A stretch of DNA of 48,769 bases from a virus: positions 1 to 48,769 of the IMG/VR virus record IMGVR_UViG_3300031975_001983. One strand, 5' to 3'. Made by a program: the position numbers and the translations under genes. Shown here piece by piece: positions 1-48,769 of this stretch; positions within the stretch are counted from its first letter, which is position 1; the number at the start of each line of letters is the position of its first letter. The notes beneath the pieces are model-generated. The model had not been told where the DNA came from, searched no databases, and saw only the letters and a list, made by a program, of their open reading frames with translations.

Positions 1-91
1 GCGGTCGGGCCGTGTCCGGGCTGCGGCGGGCGCGACCGGTTTTCCGTGTCGCGGTCGAAGAACATATGGCGCTGCCGCCAGGGCGGCGGCG
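1..91. repeat. Assembly overlap, left copy (circular contig)
   Basis: These 91 bases are identical to 48679-48769. They lie inside the primase coding sequence and keep its reading frame across the join, so they are best read as the k-mer overlap of a circular or circularly permuted assembly. A physical terminal repeat would rarely sit inside an essential gene. Confidence 0.93.
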
Positions 92-1143
92 ACCCGATCG
101 GCGGCGATGCGATCGCGCTGGTCGAGCATGTCGAGCGCTGCTCCTTCCGCCGCGCCGTCGAGATCCTGACCGGCGACCTCGCCGGCGTGAAGGCGCGCGA
201 AACCGCGCCCGATCCGGCGGCCGAGAACGAATTCCGGGAGAAGGAGCGGCGGCGCGCCTATCAGCTCTGGCGCGAGGGCTCGGCGTTTCCCGACGGCGGT
301 CCCGTCGCCGGCTATCTCGCCGGACGCGGCATCGATCCGGCCTATGCCCGCATGGCCGGCGCGTTCTGCCGCGAGCATGCCGACATGCCGTACTGGCATC
401 ATTTTCCCGACACCGCGCCCGTCCTGCCGGGCAGGCAAAGAGGCAAGGGCGAATGGCGGGTGATCCATCGCGGCCCGGCCATGCTGTGGCCGATCCAGGC
501 GCGCGACGGCCGCTTCCTCGGCCTGCATGCGACCTGGCTCGACCCGCGCGGCGACAAGGGCAAGGCGGAAATCGTCCATCCCGAGACGGGCGAGATGCTG
601 CCGGCGAAGAAGGTGCGCGGATCGAAGAAGGGCGGGCGCATCGTCCTGCGCGACGTCATCAAGCGCGCGCCGGGCGTCGCGGTCGGCGAGGGCGTGGAAT
701 CCGTCCTGTCGTGGTTTCTGCTGCGCGAGCGCGACGTGTCGATCGAAACGTCGGTCGACCTCGGCAATCTCGCCGGCCGCGCCGCGCGCACCGTGGCGCA
801 TCCGACGCGAAAGATCGAACGCCGCGACGGGCGCATGATGCCGGTGCGCGTGCCCGGTCCCGAGCCGCTGGAGGGCGAGGACCCGTCGACCCTTTGGGCG
901 CCGCATCCGGGCGCTTCCTTCCTGATCCTGATCGCCGACGGCGATTCCGACGCCTTCGCCACGCATGCCGCCATGCTGCGCGCCCGCGCGCGGCTGACCG
1001 GGAGTCTTGCCCCACGATCCGTGGGAGGATCGGCCTTGTCCGGTGCCGAGATCACGACCGACTGGCCGCCCGACGGCCGCGACTTCAATGCGCTGCTGAT
1101 GGGGCGGCCCTTCGACAGGCTCAGGACAGGGGTCAGCCGATGA
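1..1143 (+). CDS. Phage DNA primase, CHC2 zinc finger plus Toprim (3' part; starts at 48565)
   Basis: This is the C-terminal 380 residues of a 418-residue primase whose first 38 codons are at 48565-48678. It should synthesise RNA primers at the phage fork. The zinc-finger signature CPGCGGRDRFSV and WRCRQGGGDPIGGDAI follows the join (Cys43, Cys46 and Cys63 of the whole protein). A Toprim-like core carries GEGVES near residue 268 and ADGDSD near 351, the expected acidic positions. No helicase domain is present; that is supplied by the separate gene at 4650. The 3' end is odd: the last codons (PFDRLRTGVSR) come from a dispersed repeat at 1110-1137. The stop overlaps the next start (ATGA), so the two genes are probably translationally coupled. 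Confidence 0.9.
   Translation, partial: AVGPCPGCGGRDRFSVSRSKNIWRCRQGGGDPIGGDAIALVEHVERCSFRRAVEILTGDLAGVKARETAPDPAAENEFREKERRRAYQLWREGSAFPDGGPVAGYLAGRGIDPAYARMAGAFCREHADMPYWHHFPDTAPVLPGRQRGKGEWRVIHRGPAMLWPIQARDGRFLGLHATWLDPRGDKGKAEIVHPETGEMLPAKKVRGSKKGGRIVLRDVIKRAPGVAVGEGVESVLSWFLLRERDVSIETSVDLGNLAGRAARTVAHPTRKIERRDGRMMPVRVPGPEPLEGEDPSTLWAPHPGASFLILIADGDSDAFATHAAMLRARARLTGSLAPRSVGGSALSGAEITTDWPPDGRDFNALLMGRPFDRLRTGVSR
1110..1137 (+). repeat. Dispersed CTTCGACAGGCTCAGG-type repeat
   Basis: A 28-base element beginning CTTCGACAGGCTCAGGAC forms the last sense codons of the primase. Read on the other strand it encodes the peptide SLSKG, which I recognise from memory as a recurrent string in alphaproteobacterial proteins. 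A related copy lies at 47123-47150, also at the 3' end of a gene. It looks like a small mobile or REP-like insertion that added a new C-terminus. Confidence 0.6.
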
Positions 1144-2281: not shown

Positions 2282-3669
2282 CCGTCCAGGCCTATCGCCA
2301 GTTTCTCGAAGCCAAGCGGCTCGCTGATCCCGCGACCGGCATTCCGATCCCGCCCGATCTGCCCGACTATCTGTTCCCGCACCAGCGCGACATCACCCGA
2401 TGGGCGCTGCGGCGCGGTCGCGCGGCGATCTTCGCCGGGACCGGTCTCGGCAAGACGTTGATGGAACTCGTCTGGTCCTGTGCCGTCGCCCGCCACACCG
2501 GCCGGCCGGTGCTTCTGCTCGCGCCGCTTTCGGTGTCTCACCAGCATGCCCGCGAGGCCGGCGCATTTGGGATCGATGTGCGCGTCGTCTCGGCCAACGC
2601 GACGGGCGAGGCGCTGATCTCCAATTACCAGAAGCTCGACCATTTCGATCTGTCCGCCTTCGGCGGCATCGCGCTCGACGAGAGTTCGATCCTGAAGGCC
2701 TATGACGGACATTACCGCACGCGGCTGATCGAGGCGGCGCGAACGATCCCGTTCCGCCTCGCGGCGACCGCGACGCCGGCGCCGAACGACTTCATGGAAC
2801 TCGGCAACCACGCCGAGTTCCTCGGCGTCATGTCCTACACGGACATGCTGGCGACCTTCTTCGTGCACGACAATTCCGAGACCCGCGTCTGGCGCCTCAA
2901 AGGTCACGCCGAGGACGCCTTCTGGAAATGGATGGCGTCATGGGCGGTCATGCTGCGCAAGCCGTCGGACCTCGGCTATCCCGACGACGGCTACGACCTG
3001 CCGCCGCTCGTCAAGCGGTCTCACGTCGTCGAGACCGGAACCCACATCACGGCCGATGGTCTCTATTCGATGTTCCCGATCGAGGCGAGGACACTCCAAG
3101 ATCGCCGCGCCGCCGCGCGCAATTCGATCGACGATCGCATCGCGCTCGGCGCGCGGATCACGCCCGCCGATACGCCCTATGTGTGGTGGTGCAACCTCAA
3201 TGCCGAAAGCGAGGGGCTCGCGAAGGCGATCCCCGGCGCGGTCGAGATCGCGGGCGCGCACACCGACGACGAAAAGGAGCGGCGGATCGAGGCCTTCGGC
3301 CGGGGCGAGATCCGCGTGCTGGTGACCAAGCCGACGATCTGCGGATTCGGCATGAACTGGCAGCATTGCCATCGGACAGGCTTCGTCGGGCTGAATGACA
3401 GTTTCGAACAGGTCTATCAGGCGGTGCGCCGCTTCTGGCGCTTCGGCCAGACGAACACCGTCACGGTCGACTTCATCCACGCCGACACCGAAGGCGCGGT
3501 GATCGCCAATCTCGACCGCAAGGAACGCGATGCCGAGCGCATGGCCGCCGCCATGGTGCGCCACATGGCTGATCTGTCGGCGGCGACGATCCGCGGCGCG
3601 GCGCGCGAGCGGCCGACCTATGACCCGTCTCTTCCGGTGACGCTGCCGCAATGGGAGGAATTCGCATGA
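2278..3669 (+). CDS. SNF2/DEAD-like phage helicase
   Basis: The 463-residue superfamily 2 helicase has Walker A GTGLGKT at residues 54-60, a Walker B variant LDESS at 132-136 and a motif III-like ATATPAPND. A C-terminal motif VI-like stretch, QAVRRFWRFGQ, begins near residue 380. The N-terminal FPHQRDITRWAL resembles the Q-motif region of phage SNF2-type helicases. It probably remodels or unwinds DNA during replication or recombination. It overlaps the genes on both sides by four bases, so it is tightly coupled with the methyltransferase that follows. Confidence 0.88.
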   Translation: MTVQAYRQFLEAKRLADPATGIPIPPDLPDYLFPHQRDITRWALRRGRAAIFAGTGLGKTLMELVWSCAVARHTGRPVLLLAPLSVSHQHAREAGAFGIDVRVVSANATGEALISNYQKLDHFDLSAFGGIALDESSILKAYDGHYRTRLIEAARTIPFRLAATATPAPNDFMELGNHAEFLGVMSYTDMLATFFVHDNSETRVWRLKGHAEDAFWKWMASWAVMLRKPSDLGYPDDGYDLPPLVKRSHVVETGTHITADGLYSMFPIEARTLQDRRAAARNSIDDRIALGARITPADTPYVWWCNLNAESEGLAKAIPGAVEIAGAHTDDEKERRIEAFGRGEIRVLVTKPTICGFGMNWQHCHRTGFVGLNDSFEQVYQAVRRFWRFGQTNTVTVDFIHADTEGAVIANLDRKERDAERMAAAMVRHMADLSAATIRGAARERPTYDPSLPVTLPQWEEFA

Positions 3670-4637
3670 AGCTCGACATCCATGCCGTCGACCAGGTCGT
3701 CACCGACCGATATGCCATCTATCAGGGCGACAGTTGCGAACTGATCCGAGCGATCCCCGGCGACACGATCCATTTCGGCATCCACTCGCCGCCCTTCGAG
3801 GGGCTTTACAAGTTTTCCAATTTCGATCGCGACCTGTCGAATAGCGAGGGCGCCGACTTCTGGACGCACTACGCCTTCCTGATCGCCGAACTCCTGCGCG
3901 TGACGAAGCCCGGCCGCCTGCATTCGGTGCATGTGATGCAGCTCCCGACATCGAAGATCCGCCACGGCTTCATCGGCATGCGGGACTTCCGTGGCGAGGT
4001 GATCCGCGCTTTCGAGGACGCGGGGTGGATCTTCCATTCCGAGGTCTGCATCTGGAAGGACCCCGTCGTGGCGCAGCAGCGCACGAAATCGATCCGGCTC
4101 CTCCACAAGCAGATCGTGAAGGATTCGACCATCTCAGGGCAGGGGCTCGCCGATTTCGTCGTGACCTTCCGCAAGCCCGGCGACAATCCCGAGCCTGTGG
4201 CGGGCTGTTTTCACCGCTATGTCGGCGAGGGCGATGGTCCGGATTTCGCCAAGTACACGACCGCGACGGACGGACGAAACTGGTATTCGATCGAGGTTTG
4301 GCAGCGCTACGCCTCGCCGGTGTGGATGGATATCAGGCAGTCGAACACGCTGTCGTTCCGCGAGGCGCGCGACGACAAGGACGAGCAGCACATATCGCCC
4401 CTCCAGCTCGACGTGATCGACCGATGCATCGATCTGTGGACCAACCCCGGCGACATCGTGCTGACGCCATTCCTTGGCATCGGGTCGGAAGTGTGGTGCG
4501 CCCTCCGGTCGCGCCGCCGCGGCGTCGGCTTCGAACTGAAGCCGAGCTATTTTTCGCAGGCGAAGGCGAATTGCGCCCGCGCCTGCGTGGATGAACCGCG
4601 ATCCGACGACATCTTCGCCGCCATCGCGGCGGGCTGA
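3666..4637 (+). CDS. DNA (N4-cytosine or N6-adenine) methyltransferase, beta class
   Basis: The 323-residue protein has the catalytic motif IV as SPPF at residues 41-44 and the AdoMet-binding motif I as TPFLGIGSE near 267-275. Motif IV before motif I marks the beta class (N4-cytosine or N6-adenine). SPP(Y/F) is commoner in N4-cytosine enzymes than the DPPY of CcrM. The target-recognition part lies between the motifs. Start 3666 is preferred over ATG 3651 because GGGAGG lies 7 bases upstream. No cognate restriction gene is present, so this is an orphan enzyme, probably for anti-restriction or for marking phage DNA. Confidence 0.87.
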   Translation: MKLDIHAVDQVVTDRYAIYQGDSCELIRAIPGDTIHFGIHSPPFEGLYKFSNFDRDLSNSEGADFWTHYAFLIAELLRVTKPGRLHSVHVMQLPTSKIRHGFIGMRDFRGEVIRAFEDAGWIFHSEVCIWKDPVVAQQRTKSIRLLHKQIVKDSTISGQGLADFVVTFRKPGDNPEPVAGCFHRYVGEGDGPDFAKYTTATDGRNWYSIEVWQRYASPVWMDIRQSNTLSFREARDDKDEQHISPLQLDVIDRCIDLWTNPGDIVLTPFLGIGSEVWCALRSRRRGVGFELKPSYFSQAKANCARACVDEPRSDDIFAAIAAG

Positions 4638-42744: not shown

Positions 42745-43875
42745 CTACACCCGCATCGGCATGACGATCGCCAGGAAATCCTCGTCGGCGGGATTTTCGA
42801 GGCGGATCGGATGGCCGGTTTCGGCGACGTCCATGCGCACCGTGTCGGCGCCGCGATCCTTCATGGCCGACAGCGTGGCGTGAAGGTATTTTCCGGACAG
42901 GCCGAAGGTGGGCATGTCGCCTTCGAATTCGCAGCGCACCGCGTCGACCGCGTCACCGAAGGCGGCGGCCTCGATCGTGATGCTGTCCTCGACCGGGCGG
43001 ATGCGCACGGCCGTTCCCGACTTGCTCTTCGCCTTGGCGTTCTCGACACTGGCATCCTGGATTTTCAGGACGCGCGACAAGGCCGCGATCATCTCGGCTA
43101 CGTCGAAGGTGGCGGCGACTCCGCTCGGCGCGGGGATGACCTTGCGATAGGGCGGATAGCGGTTCTCGATCAGCTTCGACACGATGCGCTCGCGCACCGT
43201 CGAGACGGCGACGGCATGGTCGCTCGCCTCCAGTCGCACCGTGTTTTCGCCGGCCTTGTCGGCGATCGCGATCATCTCCTTCGCAGCCTTGGCGCCGATG
43301 ATGATGCCGTCCGGCAGGGACAGGCCGTCCGGCGCGGGGATGCTGACGGTCTGGAACCGGTAGCCGTTCGTCCCGACGGCGCACAGGCGCCCGTCCAGCG
43401 TGTCGAGGAAGACGCCTTCGAGATAGAAGCGATCGTCCTGGCCGCGCGGGCTGACCGCGCCGATGCAGGCCGAGAGGATCGACACGAGATCCTTTCCGGG
43501 AATGTTTGCCGCCGTGGTGAAGTTCGGCCGGAAGCGCGGGAAGTCGCTGCCGGGCAGGATCTGGCCGGCGAAGCGCGCGCGGCCGGCGGAGAAGGCGGCG
43601 GTGCGATCGTCGACCGTCATCTTCACTTCCTTGGCGCCGAGCGCGCCGGCGGCTTCCATCAGGAAGGGAGGCAGGCAGACCGGCGCGAAATCAGCCGACG
43701 CCTCGATCGTCAGCGACAGTTCGAGGTCGCAGTCGGTGGCGGTGATCTCCATGCCGCCGTCGCCCGGCGTGAGCAGGAACATGCCGGCGACCGGGATGCC
43801 GTTCGCCCTGTCGGGAATGCCGCGCAGGGCGGAATGGGCGCCGGCGAGGATTTTTGGGTCGATCGCGAGGGTCAT
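42745..43875 (-). CDS. dnaN: DNA polymerase III beta sliding clamp homologue
   Basis: The 376-residue protein is the full length of DnaN. The N-terminal domain has GMEITATDCDLELSLTIEA, the middle has PFLMEAAGALGAKEVKMTVD and RFAGQILPGSDFPRFRP, and the third domain ends FLAIVMPMRV, close to the bacterial VMPMRL terminus that lines the protein-binding pocket. It should encircle DNA and tether a polymerase. No phage polymerase is present, so it probably recruits host Pol III. Its ATG overlaps the stop of the 43872 gene. Confidence 0.88.
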   Translation of the reverse strand: MTLAIDPKILAGAHSALRGIPDRANGIPVAGMFLLTPGDGGMEITATDCDLELSLTIEASADFAPVCLPPFLMEAAGALGAKEVKMTVDDRTAAFSAGRARFAGQILPGSDFPRFRPNFTTAANIPGKDLVSILSACIGAVSPRGQDDRFYLEGVFLDTLDGRLCAVGTNGYRFQTVSIPAPDGLSLPDGIIIGAKAAKEMIAIADKAGENTVRLEASDHAVAVSTVRERIVSKLIENRYPPYRKVIPAPSGVAATFDVAEMIAALSRVLKIQDASVENAKAKSKSGTAVRIRPVEDSITIEAAAFGDAVDAVRCEFEGDMPTFGLSGKYLHATLSAMKDRGADTVRMDVAETGHPIRLENPADEDFLAIVMPMRV

Positions 43876-47261: not shown

Positions 47262-47717
47262 ATGAAGGACAGGCCGACCAGCGACCACGACCGCCGCCGC
47301 CTCAAGGCCGCGACGGAACGGTCGATCCGCCGCGCCGGCGGCGGAACCGTGTTCGCGGCGCTGACCCGCGTCGAGCCGCCGGCGCTGTCGAAATATGCAG
47401 CTATGCACGACGACCACTTCATGCCGATCGACGTCGCGCTCGACTGCGACATGGCCGCCGGCGCGCCGGTGATCCTCGCCGCCATGGCTGCCAGTGCCGG
47501 CTACACGATCGCGCCGGCCGCCGCGGCCGCCGCGCCGCTCTGTCCCGTCATGGTCGGCACGCTGATCCGCGAGACCGGGGAGGTCTCGGCCGTGGTGCTC
47601 GAAGCCATGGCCGACGGGCGGCTGACCCCGCGGGAGCGGCAGGCGATCGCAAAGGAAATCGACGAGGCGATGGTCGCACTCTGGACGCTGAAGAACGCGG
47701 TGGCGGGGGATCAATGA
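47262..47717 (+). CDS. CII-like phage regulatory protein
   Basis: The 151-residue protein has RRRLKAATERSIRRAGGGTV, then SKYAAMHDDHFMPIDVALDC and AGAPVILAAMAASAGYTIAP, the pattern of the phage CII-type regulators of alphaproteobacterial prophages. Its C-terminal half is helical (LTPRERQAIAKEIDEAMVAL). GGGGGAG lies 6 bases upstream. Position directly after Cro fits a lysis-lysogeny activator. The stop overlaps the dpdA start. Confidence 0.72.
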   Translation: MKDRPTSDHDRRRLKAATERSIRRAGGGTVFAALTRVEPPALSKYAAMHDDHFMPIDVALDCDMAAGAPVILAAMAASAGYTIAPAAAAAAPLCPVMVGTLIRETGEVSAVVLEAMADGRLTPRERQAIAKEIDEAMVALWTLKNAVAGDQ

Positions 47718-48568
47718 CGCTCGTCTACGGGTCCGTCTGCTCGGGGCTGGACACCAATGCTCGCGAAAGCGGCCGCATATCGTTCTTCGTCGGACTTCAT
47801 CAGCCGGCGGACGCGAAGCACTTCAGTCTCGCATGTATCAGCATCAATCGGTTGCGCGGTCGGAAGAAGCCCATCTCCTGTCCTCGGGTTCTCGTCGATA
47901 GCGCGGCATTCACGGAGCTTAACCTGCATGGCACCTACCGCCACGATGTTGAGGAATATGCCACCGAGTTGTTTCGGCTTCACTCGACCGGGGTTGTCCG
48001 GATCGCCGCCGCCGTTGCGCAGGATTACATGTGCGAGCCGTTCATGCTCGCGAAAACCGGTCTAACGGTCGACGATCATCAACGACTGACGATCGAACGA
48101 TATGACGATCTGGTGGCATCTCTCGACCGTCTCTTCGATGGCGCATGCCCATTTCCGGTGATGCCGGTCCTTCAGGGATATGACCCTGCTGATTACGTCC
48201 GCCACGTGGCAGCCTATGGCGACCGCCTGCGCGATCGGATGTGGGTGGGTGTCGGAAGTGTTTGCAAGCGTAACGGCGCGCCTGCGAAGATCGTCGCCGT
48301 TCTAGAATGCATTAACGCCGTCCGACCCGATCTCGCGCTTCACGGCTTCGGCGTCAAGTATACCGCTTTGGAACATCCCGGCGTTCGCGCATTGCTGACG
48401 ACTGCCGACAGTATGGCGTGGTCGTTTGCAGCTCGCAGGCAGGGCCGCAACGCGAACTGCTGGCGTGAGGCGCTGAGCTTCGTCGCATCGATAGAATCCA
48501 TAGACGCTGGCGCCATGTGGCAGCCGTCACTCTTTACGGCGATCACTTGCCGAGAGATAGCGGCATGA
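47714..48568 (+). CDS. dpdA: DpdA-like 7-deazaguanine DNA transglycosylase
   Basis: The 284-residue protein resembles phage DpdA enzymes, relatives of tRNA-guanine transglycosylase that swap guanine in DNA for a deazaguanine. Family-like strings are FFVGLHQPADAKHF, VLVDSAAFTELNLHG (Asp62), VAQDYMCEPF, VMPVLQGYDPADYV, VGVGSVCKRNG, LHGFGVKYTAL and TADSMAWSFAARRQGRNANC. The usual DSGAF is DSAAF here. The first 12 residues, MTLVYGSVCSGL, look like the start of a cytosine-5 methyltransferase, not of DpdA. No queuosine-pathway genes are present, so the base would come from host preQ0. Its DNA is visibly less GC-rich than its neighbours. Confidence 0.82.
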   Translation: MTLVYGSVCSGLDTNARESGRISFFVGLHQPADAKHFSLACISINRLRGRKKPISCPRVLVDSAAFTELNLHGTYRHDVEEYATELFRLHSTGVVRIAAAVAQDYMCEPFMLAKTGLTVDDHQRLTIERYDDLVASLDRLFDGACPFPVMPVLQGYDPADYVRHVAAYGDRLRDRMWVGVGSVCKRNGAPAKIVAVLECINAVRPDLALHGFGVKYTALEHPGVRALLTTADSMAWSFAARRQGRNANCWREALSFVASIESIDAGAMWQPSLFTAITCREIAA

Positions 48569-48769
48569 CCGGCCCGGATCGCATTCCCGACGAGGCGGTC
48601 GACAAGGCGCGCGCGATCGACGTCGCGAGCGTCGCGACGCGCTACGGCTTCGCCAAGGCGATCCCGGCCACCGGCGAAGCGGTCGGGCCGTGTCCGGGCT
48701 GCGGCGGGCGCGACCGGTTTTCCGTGTCGCGGTCGAAGAACATATGGCGCTGCCGCCAGGGCGGCGGCG
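48565..48769 (+). CDS. Phage DNA primase, 5' part (continues at position 1)
   Basis: MTGPDRIPDEAVDKARAIDV begins the primase, with the zinc-finger half repeated in the overlap. The 38 codons before 48679 are the unique part. The ATG overlaps the dpdA stop (ATGA), so dpdA, primase and gcrA form one coupled run across the join. Confidence 0.9.
   Translation, partial: MTGPDRIPDEAVDKARAIDVASVATRYGFAKAIPATGEAVGPCPGCGGRDRFSVSRSKNIWRCRQGGG
48679..48769. repeat. Assembly overlap, right copy
   Basis: Identical to 1-91. Removing one copy gives a circle of 48,678 bases. Confidence 0.93.

Follow-up and report, generated by a model that had tools for sequence, protein, structure and literature searches.

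The early operon of a phage genome from IMG/VR encodes a DpdA-family protein whose first dozen residues resemble the start of a C5-cytosine methyltransferase (dcm), and this start segment is probably a dcm remnant that acts as the initiation site of DpdA, whichever route brought the two together. The window, i.e. the whole stretch of DNA that was analyzed, comprises 48,769 nucleotides (IMG/VR record IMGVR_UViG_3300031975_001983), and the features discussed below are collected in Table 1.

Table 1. Features of the window around the dpdA gene.
Feature	Position	Strand	Basis or remark
DpdA ORF, 284 aa, with a probably dcm-derived 5′ end	47714..48568	+	PF23859, phrog_1279, AlphaFold2 model, 7ui4 fold match
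Probably dcm-derived start segment, codons 1-12, possibly to 14 (MTLVYGSVCSGLDT)	47714..47755	+	Comparison with L101/L130 dcm
Junction codons 15-23 (NARESGRIS), without canonical start codon	47756..47782	+	Start-codon listing
DpdA core, FFVGLHQP motif to end	47783..48565	+	Alignments, third-position-biased divergence from relatives
CII-like regulator (PF06892), P0003, directly 5′ of dpdA	47262..47717	+	TGA stop inside the dcm-type ATGA
CHC2-type primase, first part	48565..48678	+	Continues at 1-1143 over the circular junction (418 aa)
CHC2-type primase, second part	1..1143	+	
Exact 91-bp terminal repeat of 1-91	48679..48769	.	Marks a circular record

Genome and early operon

The exact 91-bp repeat at both ends of the record indicates that the genome is complete and circular, with a length of 48,678 bp. 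It contains genes for terminase GpA, portal, a sheath-like protein, a Mu-like baseplate and an integrase, and the combination of structural genes with an integrase identifies a temperate myovirus-like phage. The relatives of its CII and primase indicate that the host group is probably Alphaproteobacteria. The early operon is arranged in the order CII-like regulator, dpdA, CHC2-type primase, helicase and N6/N4 DNA methylase. The last of these, located after the helicase (3666-4637; PF01555 2.7e-13), is a second DNA-modification gene in the same operon; in Pseudanabaena phage Pan4, a helicase and a methylase in the same order, each about 42% identical to its counterpart here, precede a dcm. A homologue of the DNA polymerase III beta-clamp with all three domains is encoded at 42745-43875 on the minus strand. 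The complete genome has no match to PF00145 anywhere, so a dcm located elsewhere in the genome is ruled out.

The body of the protein is a DpdA

The ORF at 47714-48568, for which the coordinates, plus strand and frame are exact, translates to 284 residues beginning MTLVYGSVCSGLDTNARESGRISFFVGLHQP. The earlier note, made from the sequence of this stretch, had read the body of the protein as DpdA, and this is confirmed by matches to PF23859 (9.2e-44, residues 43-253, profile positions 28-234 of 291) and to phrog_1279, ‘queuine tRNA-ribosyltransferase’ (5.4e-82, residues 22-252, profile positions 3-233 of 260). The first matched residues, 22 for PHROG and 43 for Pfam, are in agreement with its placing of the DpdA part from about residue 20. 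The ORF is a full-length DpdA-family gene, and its product is not a methyltransferase, as it has no PF00145 catalytic body. The AlphaFold2 model of the protein, based on a 36-sequence alignment, has an overall pLDDT of 90.9, and within its N-terminal tail residues 1-10 are disordered (mean pLDDT of 38) and residues 11-20 have a mean pLDDT of 60. The top fold match of the model in the PDB is the DNA preQ0 insertase DpdA (7ui4; E 2.5e-7, TM-score of 0.55 by query length), and the next matches are tRNA-guanine transglycosylases (TGTs). Residues D62, D104 and D232, for which a catalytic role may be proposed by analogy with TGT, are invariant in the 36 aligned sequences and kept in this protein. 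Divergence from relatives amounts to 56-59% at third codon positions and to 17-25% at first and second positions, and this third-position bias indicates that the dpdA family is under purifying selection. In one related dpdA frame (L031, 4001-4786; same stretch as L030), the sequence diverges abruptly from the family past approximately residue 212, in a frameshift-like manner.

The composition of the gene sets it apart from the rest of the genome. Its GC content is 59.6% compared with 66.7% for the genome, below that of every sampled 855-bp stretch, and the DpdA body has a GC3 of 0.667, compared with 0.901 and 0.873 in the two neighboring genes and 0.841 on average in 14 other genes, the lowest of which has 0.773. 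The low GC and GC3 of the DpdA body fit acquisition from elsewhere, in line with the recent arrival that had been proposed from the lower GC of the gene.

The N-terminal segment resembles C5-methyltransferases

Residues 1-12 of the ORF are MTLVYGSVCSGL, and the resemblance to C5-methyltransferases possibly extends through the next two residues (DT), i.e. to codon 14 (GLDT, compared with GIEA of C5-methyltransferases), after which about 8-9 linker codons precede the DpdA core. When IMG/VR was searched with degenerate codons for MTLVYGSVCSG, one locus was returned, L101, in which the same start opens a real C5-methyltransferase, MTLVYGSVCSGIEAATMAW (PF00145 3.7e-38). Over the shared codons, the DpdA ORF and the dcm of L101/L130 are identical at 11/11 residues and 29/33 nucleotides; degenerate third positions agree in only about 6/10, so this identity is mainly one of protein sequence and gives no date for the event. 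An exact 32-nt search with the start sequence gave no match.

In the whole of the DNA fetched, 57,801 start codons that open a frame of 40 or more codons were surveyed for the pattern [YFH]GS[VIL]C[SA]G no more than 13 residues from the start. The pattern was present near the start of six C5-methyltransferase genes, which were recognized as such by sequence and in several cases also by PF00145 or annotation, and otherwise only in this DpdA gene. Part of the surveyed DNA had been fetched because it encodes dcm and is hence dcm-enriched, so the survey gives the specificity of the motif, not its frequency. Among the 93 other viral DpdA relatives, none has the YGSVCSG start, which rules out a native DpdA N-terminus as the source of the segment. 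The native starts of these relatives are usually located about 2-8 residues 5′ of F[YF]VGLHQP, which corresponds to the junction stretch of the present gene. The likeness of the first dozen residues to C5-methyltransferases, on which the earlier note had been built, is therefore upheld. A chance or convergent resemblance of a random translated leader before DpdA was also considered, in view of the shortness of the segment (11-14 residues) and of the many families with which it might have been compared for the earlier note. However, the motif is C5-methyltransferase-specific among the surveyed starts, it is positioned precisely at the ATG and includes the MTL leader of the methyltransferase itself, and a dcm with an identical start occupies the corresponding operon interval of another phage (G777, see below). 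Chance resemblance is thus nearly refuted, and we rejected it as not reasonable.

The only canonical start is the dcm-type ATG

The upstream CII-like gene ends within the ATGA that contains the ATG at 47714, and this ATG, according to the start-codon listing, is the sole in-frame ATG, GTG or TTG before residue 47, which rules out canonical initiation further downstream within this region. If DpdA is made from a canonical start, it thus begins on the dcm start codon, and the remnant is then more than a passive leader. From these sequence features, the dcm start would be the one that is used for DpdA translation. The dcm genes of L101 and Pan4 (MTLRYLSVCSG) likewise begin with ATGAC and overlap the upstream stop, so that both the start of a dcm and its overlap with the upstream gene are probably retained here, as had been proposed. 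The codon for residue 22 is ATA, and relatives such as L017 and L019 have their ATG at this position, two codons before FF; the ATA may, as a conjecture, be the decayed native DpdA start.

The CII-to-primase interval in relatives

In G777, a distant relative, the interval that holds the dcm with the identical 11-residue start is bounded by a CII-like gene that shares 36% identity with P0003 (4e-24) and by a CHC2 primase with 31% identity (9e-36); other genes are also present in this interval, and G777 gave no DpdA match. Of the relatives that have both flanking genes, the closest is L033, which is matched by a Mesorhizobium albiziae prophage region (L059); its gene order is CII, a small ORF, a phrog_757 DNA methyltransferase (3.5e-61) and primase. 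The phrog_757 methyltransferase (L033 1762-2424) has no Pfam match and contains an HPPCT motif that is reminiscent of C5-methyltransferases. The slot is empty in L035 and L065, in which the primase is immediately 3′ of CII, and in L034 and L036 a small regulator-like ORF is immediately 5′ of the primase. Among Rhizobiales prophages with more distant primases, L138 and L140 have a PF00145 gene directly 5′ of the CHC2 primase; in L141 such a gene is part of the primase operon, just 5′ of the CHC2 primase, and others have N6/N4 and MT-A70-type methylases (both judged from motifs). The methyltransferases that the earlier note had expected at this locus are thus present in relatives, and neither of the two results that it had named as refuting its reading was encountered.

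A YGSVCSG-type dcm at the slot is absent from the nearest relatives (L033 with M. albiziae, L034, L035, L036 and G290). The searches yielded no nearly identical phage that retains an intact dcm exactly at this slot, and the class-level full-primase search, the genus search and a further viral scan returned no closer relative with a dcm there. Among 397 Rhizobiales genomes searched for dcm, eight were carriers, and in none was the dcm recognized beside a CII-like gene or CHC2 primase of the models used. P0003 as a single query had no relatives in viral contigs, and its alignment retrieved only one in the genome scan; a family-level genome search was more productive. Within the fetched flanks, no other DpdA locus is accompanied by a CII or primase of the type found here, which places dpdA in a new context in this phage. 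Positions 652-880 of the phrog_864 ‘DNA primase’ profile match YGSVCSG-type dcm at 1e-96, which suggests that primase and dcm may be fused or abutting in some phages.

Tentatively, the CII-primase interval of temperate alphaproteobacterial phages may be an exchange site for unrelated modification genes (dcm, phrog_757, CcrM-like, MT-A70 and DpdA), at which recombination in the conserved 5′ end of dcm would hand the incoming gene a ready-made start and coupling; we hold this generalization to be possible but rather doubtful.

Proposed origin of the fusion

We infer that the slot of this lineage formerly held a dcm. In the proposed sequence of events, the early operon of an ancestral temperate phage, probably alphaproteobacterial, would have included a YGSVCSG-type dcm, with the CII-like regulator on one side and the primase on the other. 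Recombination would then have placed a compositionally foreign dpdA behind the initial 12-14 codons of this dcm. With the native DpdA start lost, translation would proceed from the dcm ATG that overlaps the CII stop (ATGA), and the ~20 extra N-terminal residues would be a tolerated, unstructured tail.

The same product could have arisen by deletion in a tandem, with a dcm 5′ of dpdA and a deletion that begins at dcm codon 13-15 and ends shortly after the start of dpdA. C5-methyltransferase genes do adjoin dpdA elsewhere: they are immediately 5′ of it in L007/G783 and L018/G793, immediately 3′ of it in L016/G792 (where the dcm is of the YGSVCSG type) and in L023/G798, and close by in L197 and L203/L204. 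The existence of such tandems makes deletion a real competitor of direct replacement. However, a YGSVCSG-type dcm directly 5′ of dpdA was found in no phage, as the upstream genes belong to other C5-methyltransferase subtypes, and relatives of this phage have one or zero modification genes at the slot. We regard tandem deletion as a serious possibility, its probability being a share of that assigned to a dcm-derived start and not an addition to it. Direct replacement and tandem deletion leave an identical scar, and the data do not separate the two. From the earlier statement that dpdA replaced a dcm, the dcm-derived scar that supplies the start is therefore well supported, and direct replacement is one of two possible routes to it.

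As the record is an IMG/VR contig, an assembly chimera of two phages joined inside the dcm 5′ end also had to be weighed. CII and primase belong together in L033, L035 and L065, so a chimera would need two joins; moreover, the fusion is in frame, and the contig closes to a circle via the 91-bp repeat. We consider an assembly artifact very improbable, and a genuine dcm remnant at the start of DpdA is the preferred reading.

Predicted function

By homology, the putative activity of the enzyme would be the exchange of guanine in phage DNA for a host-made 7-deazaguanine, by a TGT-type mechanism. QueC and QueD have no match in the complete genome, and FolE and QueE have none among the other proteins of the genome that were scanned. 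The lack of QueC and QueD matches in a complete genome assigns the protein to the ‘singleton’ class, i.e. DpdA without biosynthesis genes, for which the modification status is not predictable (PMC6884629), and such an enzyme would rely on a host-made precursor. The DNA of Salmonella phage 7-11 contains a trace of dADG (PMC6884629).

The protein could instead be a non-functional passenger, or have a function other than 7-deazaguanine insertion into DNA. In addition to the missing QueC and QueD, this would be in line with its 35-37% relatedness to mycobacteriophage DpdA-like proteins, since the virion DNA of the singleton mycobacteriophage Orion is unmodified in M. smegmatis, a host without the preQ0 pathway (PMC6884629). 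Other hosts may, however, supply preQ0, and the full-length fold in the model, the conserved D62, D104 and D232, and purifying selection across the dpdA family all argue against loss of function, so we consider this alternative unlikely, though not negligible. An anti-restriction role of the putative modification would be plausible. The description of enzyme swapping as a modular anti-restriction ‘strategy’ in the earlier note goes beyond the evidence, and ordinary phage mosaicism is an alternative account of the exchange.

Comparison with known systems

The closest point of reference for the enzyme is the Sinorhizobium phage phiLM21 protein, which is about 70% identical to this DpdA over residues 22-274. 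It belongs, together with proteins of Rhizobium phage RHph_TM3_3_3 and the mycobacteriophage DpdA-like proteins, to the singleton DpdAs (phrog_1279/PF23859), which are of the type without preQ0 genes; the TGT-like fold is shared, and the present genome has no QueC/QueD. Unlike these proteins, the DpdA described here has ~20 extra N-terminal residues of probable dcm origin, and the native start codon is gone. The start itself is comparable to those of YGSVCSG-type phage C5-cytosine methyltransferases, i.e. the L101/L130 dcm and those of Caulobacter phage DMCA, Pan4 and P1 (Dmt): the first 11 residues are as in L101, the position between CII and primase is as in G777, and the ATGA-coupled start is as in L101 and Pan4. 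In contrast to these genes, only the start remains, and the methyltransferase body is nowhere in this genome.

DNA-modification genes differ between phages, and to our knowledge the passage from one modification enzyme to another is seldom visible. Lactococcal 936 phages have gained methyltransferases through mosaic exchange (PMC4190342), and their orphan modification genes are similarly located in packaging and replication regions. The present case is an instance of phage modification-gene mosaicism, an already known kind of process, with an intragenic junction; it differs from the 936 phages in that the junction is within coding sequence, two unrelated modification enzymes are joined, and the start codon has probably been donated. 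Here the junction is legible within one gene, in which a base-exchange enzyme is placed on what is probably a methyltransferase start codon. This architecture points to a site in the early operon of temperate phages where modification genes of unrelated chemistry may come and go, and a testable prediction on the translation start and on DNA chemistry follows from it.
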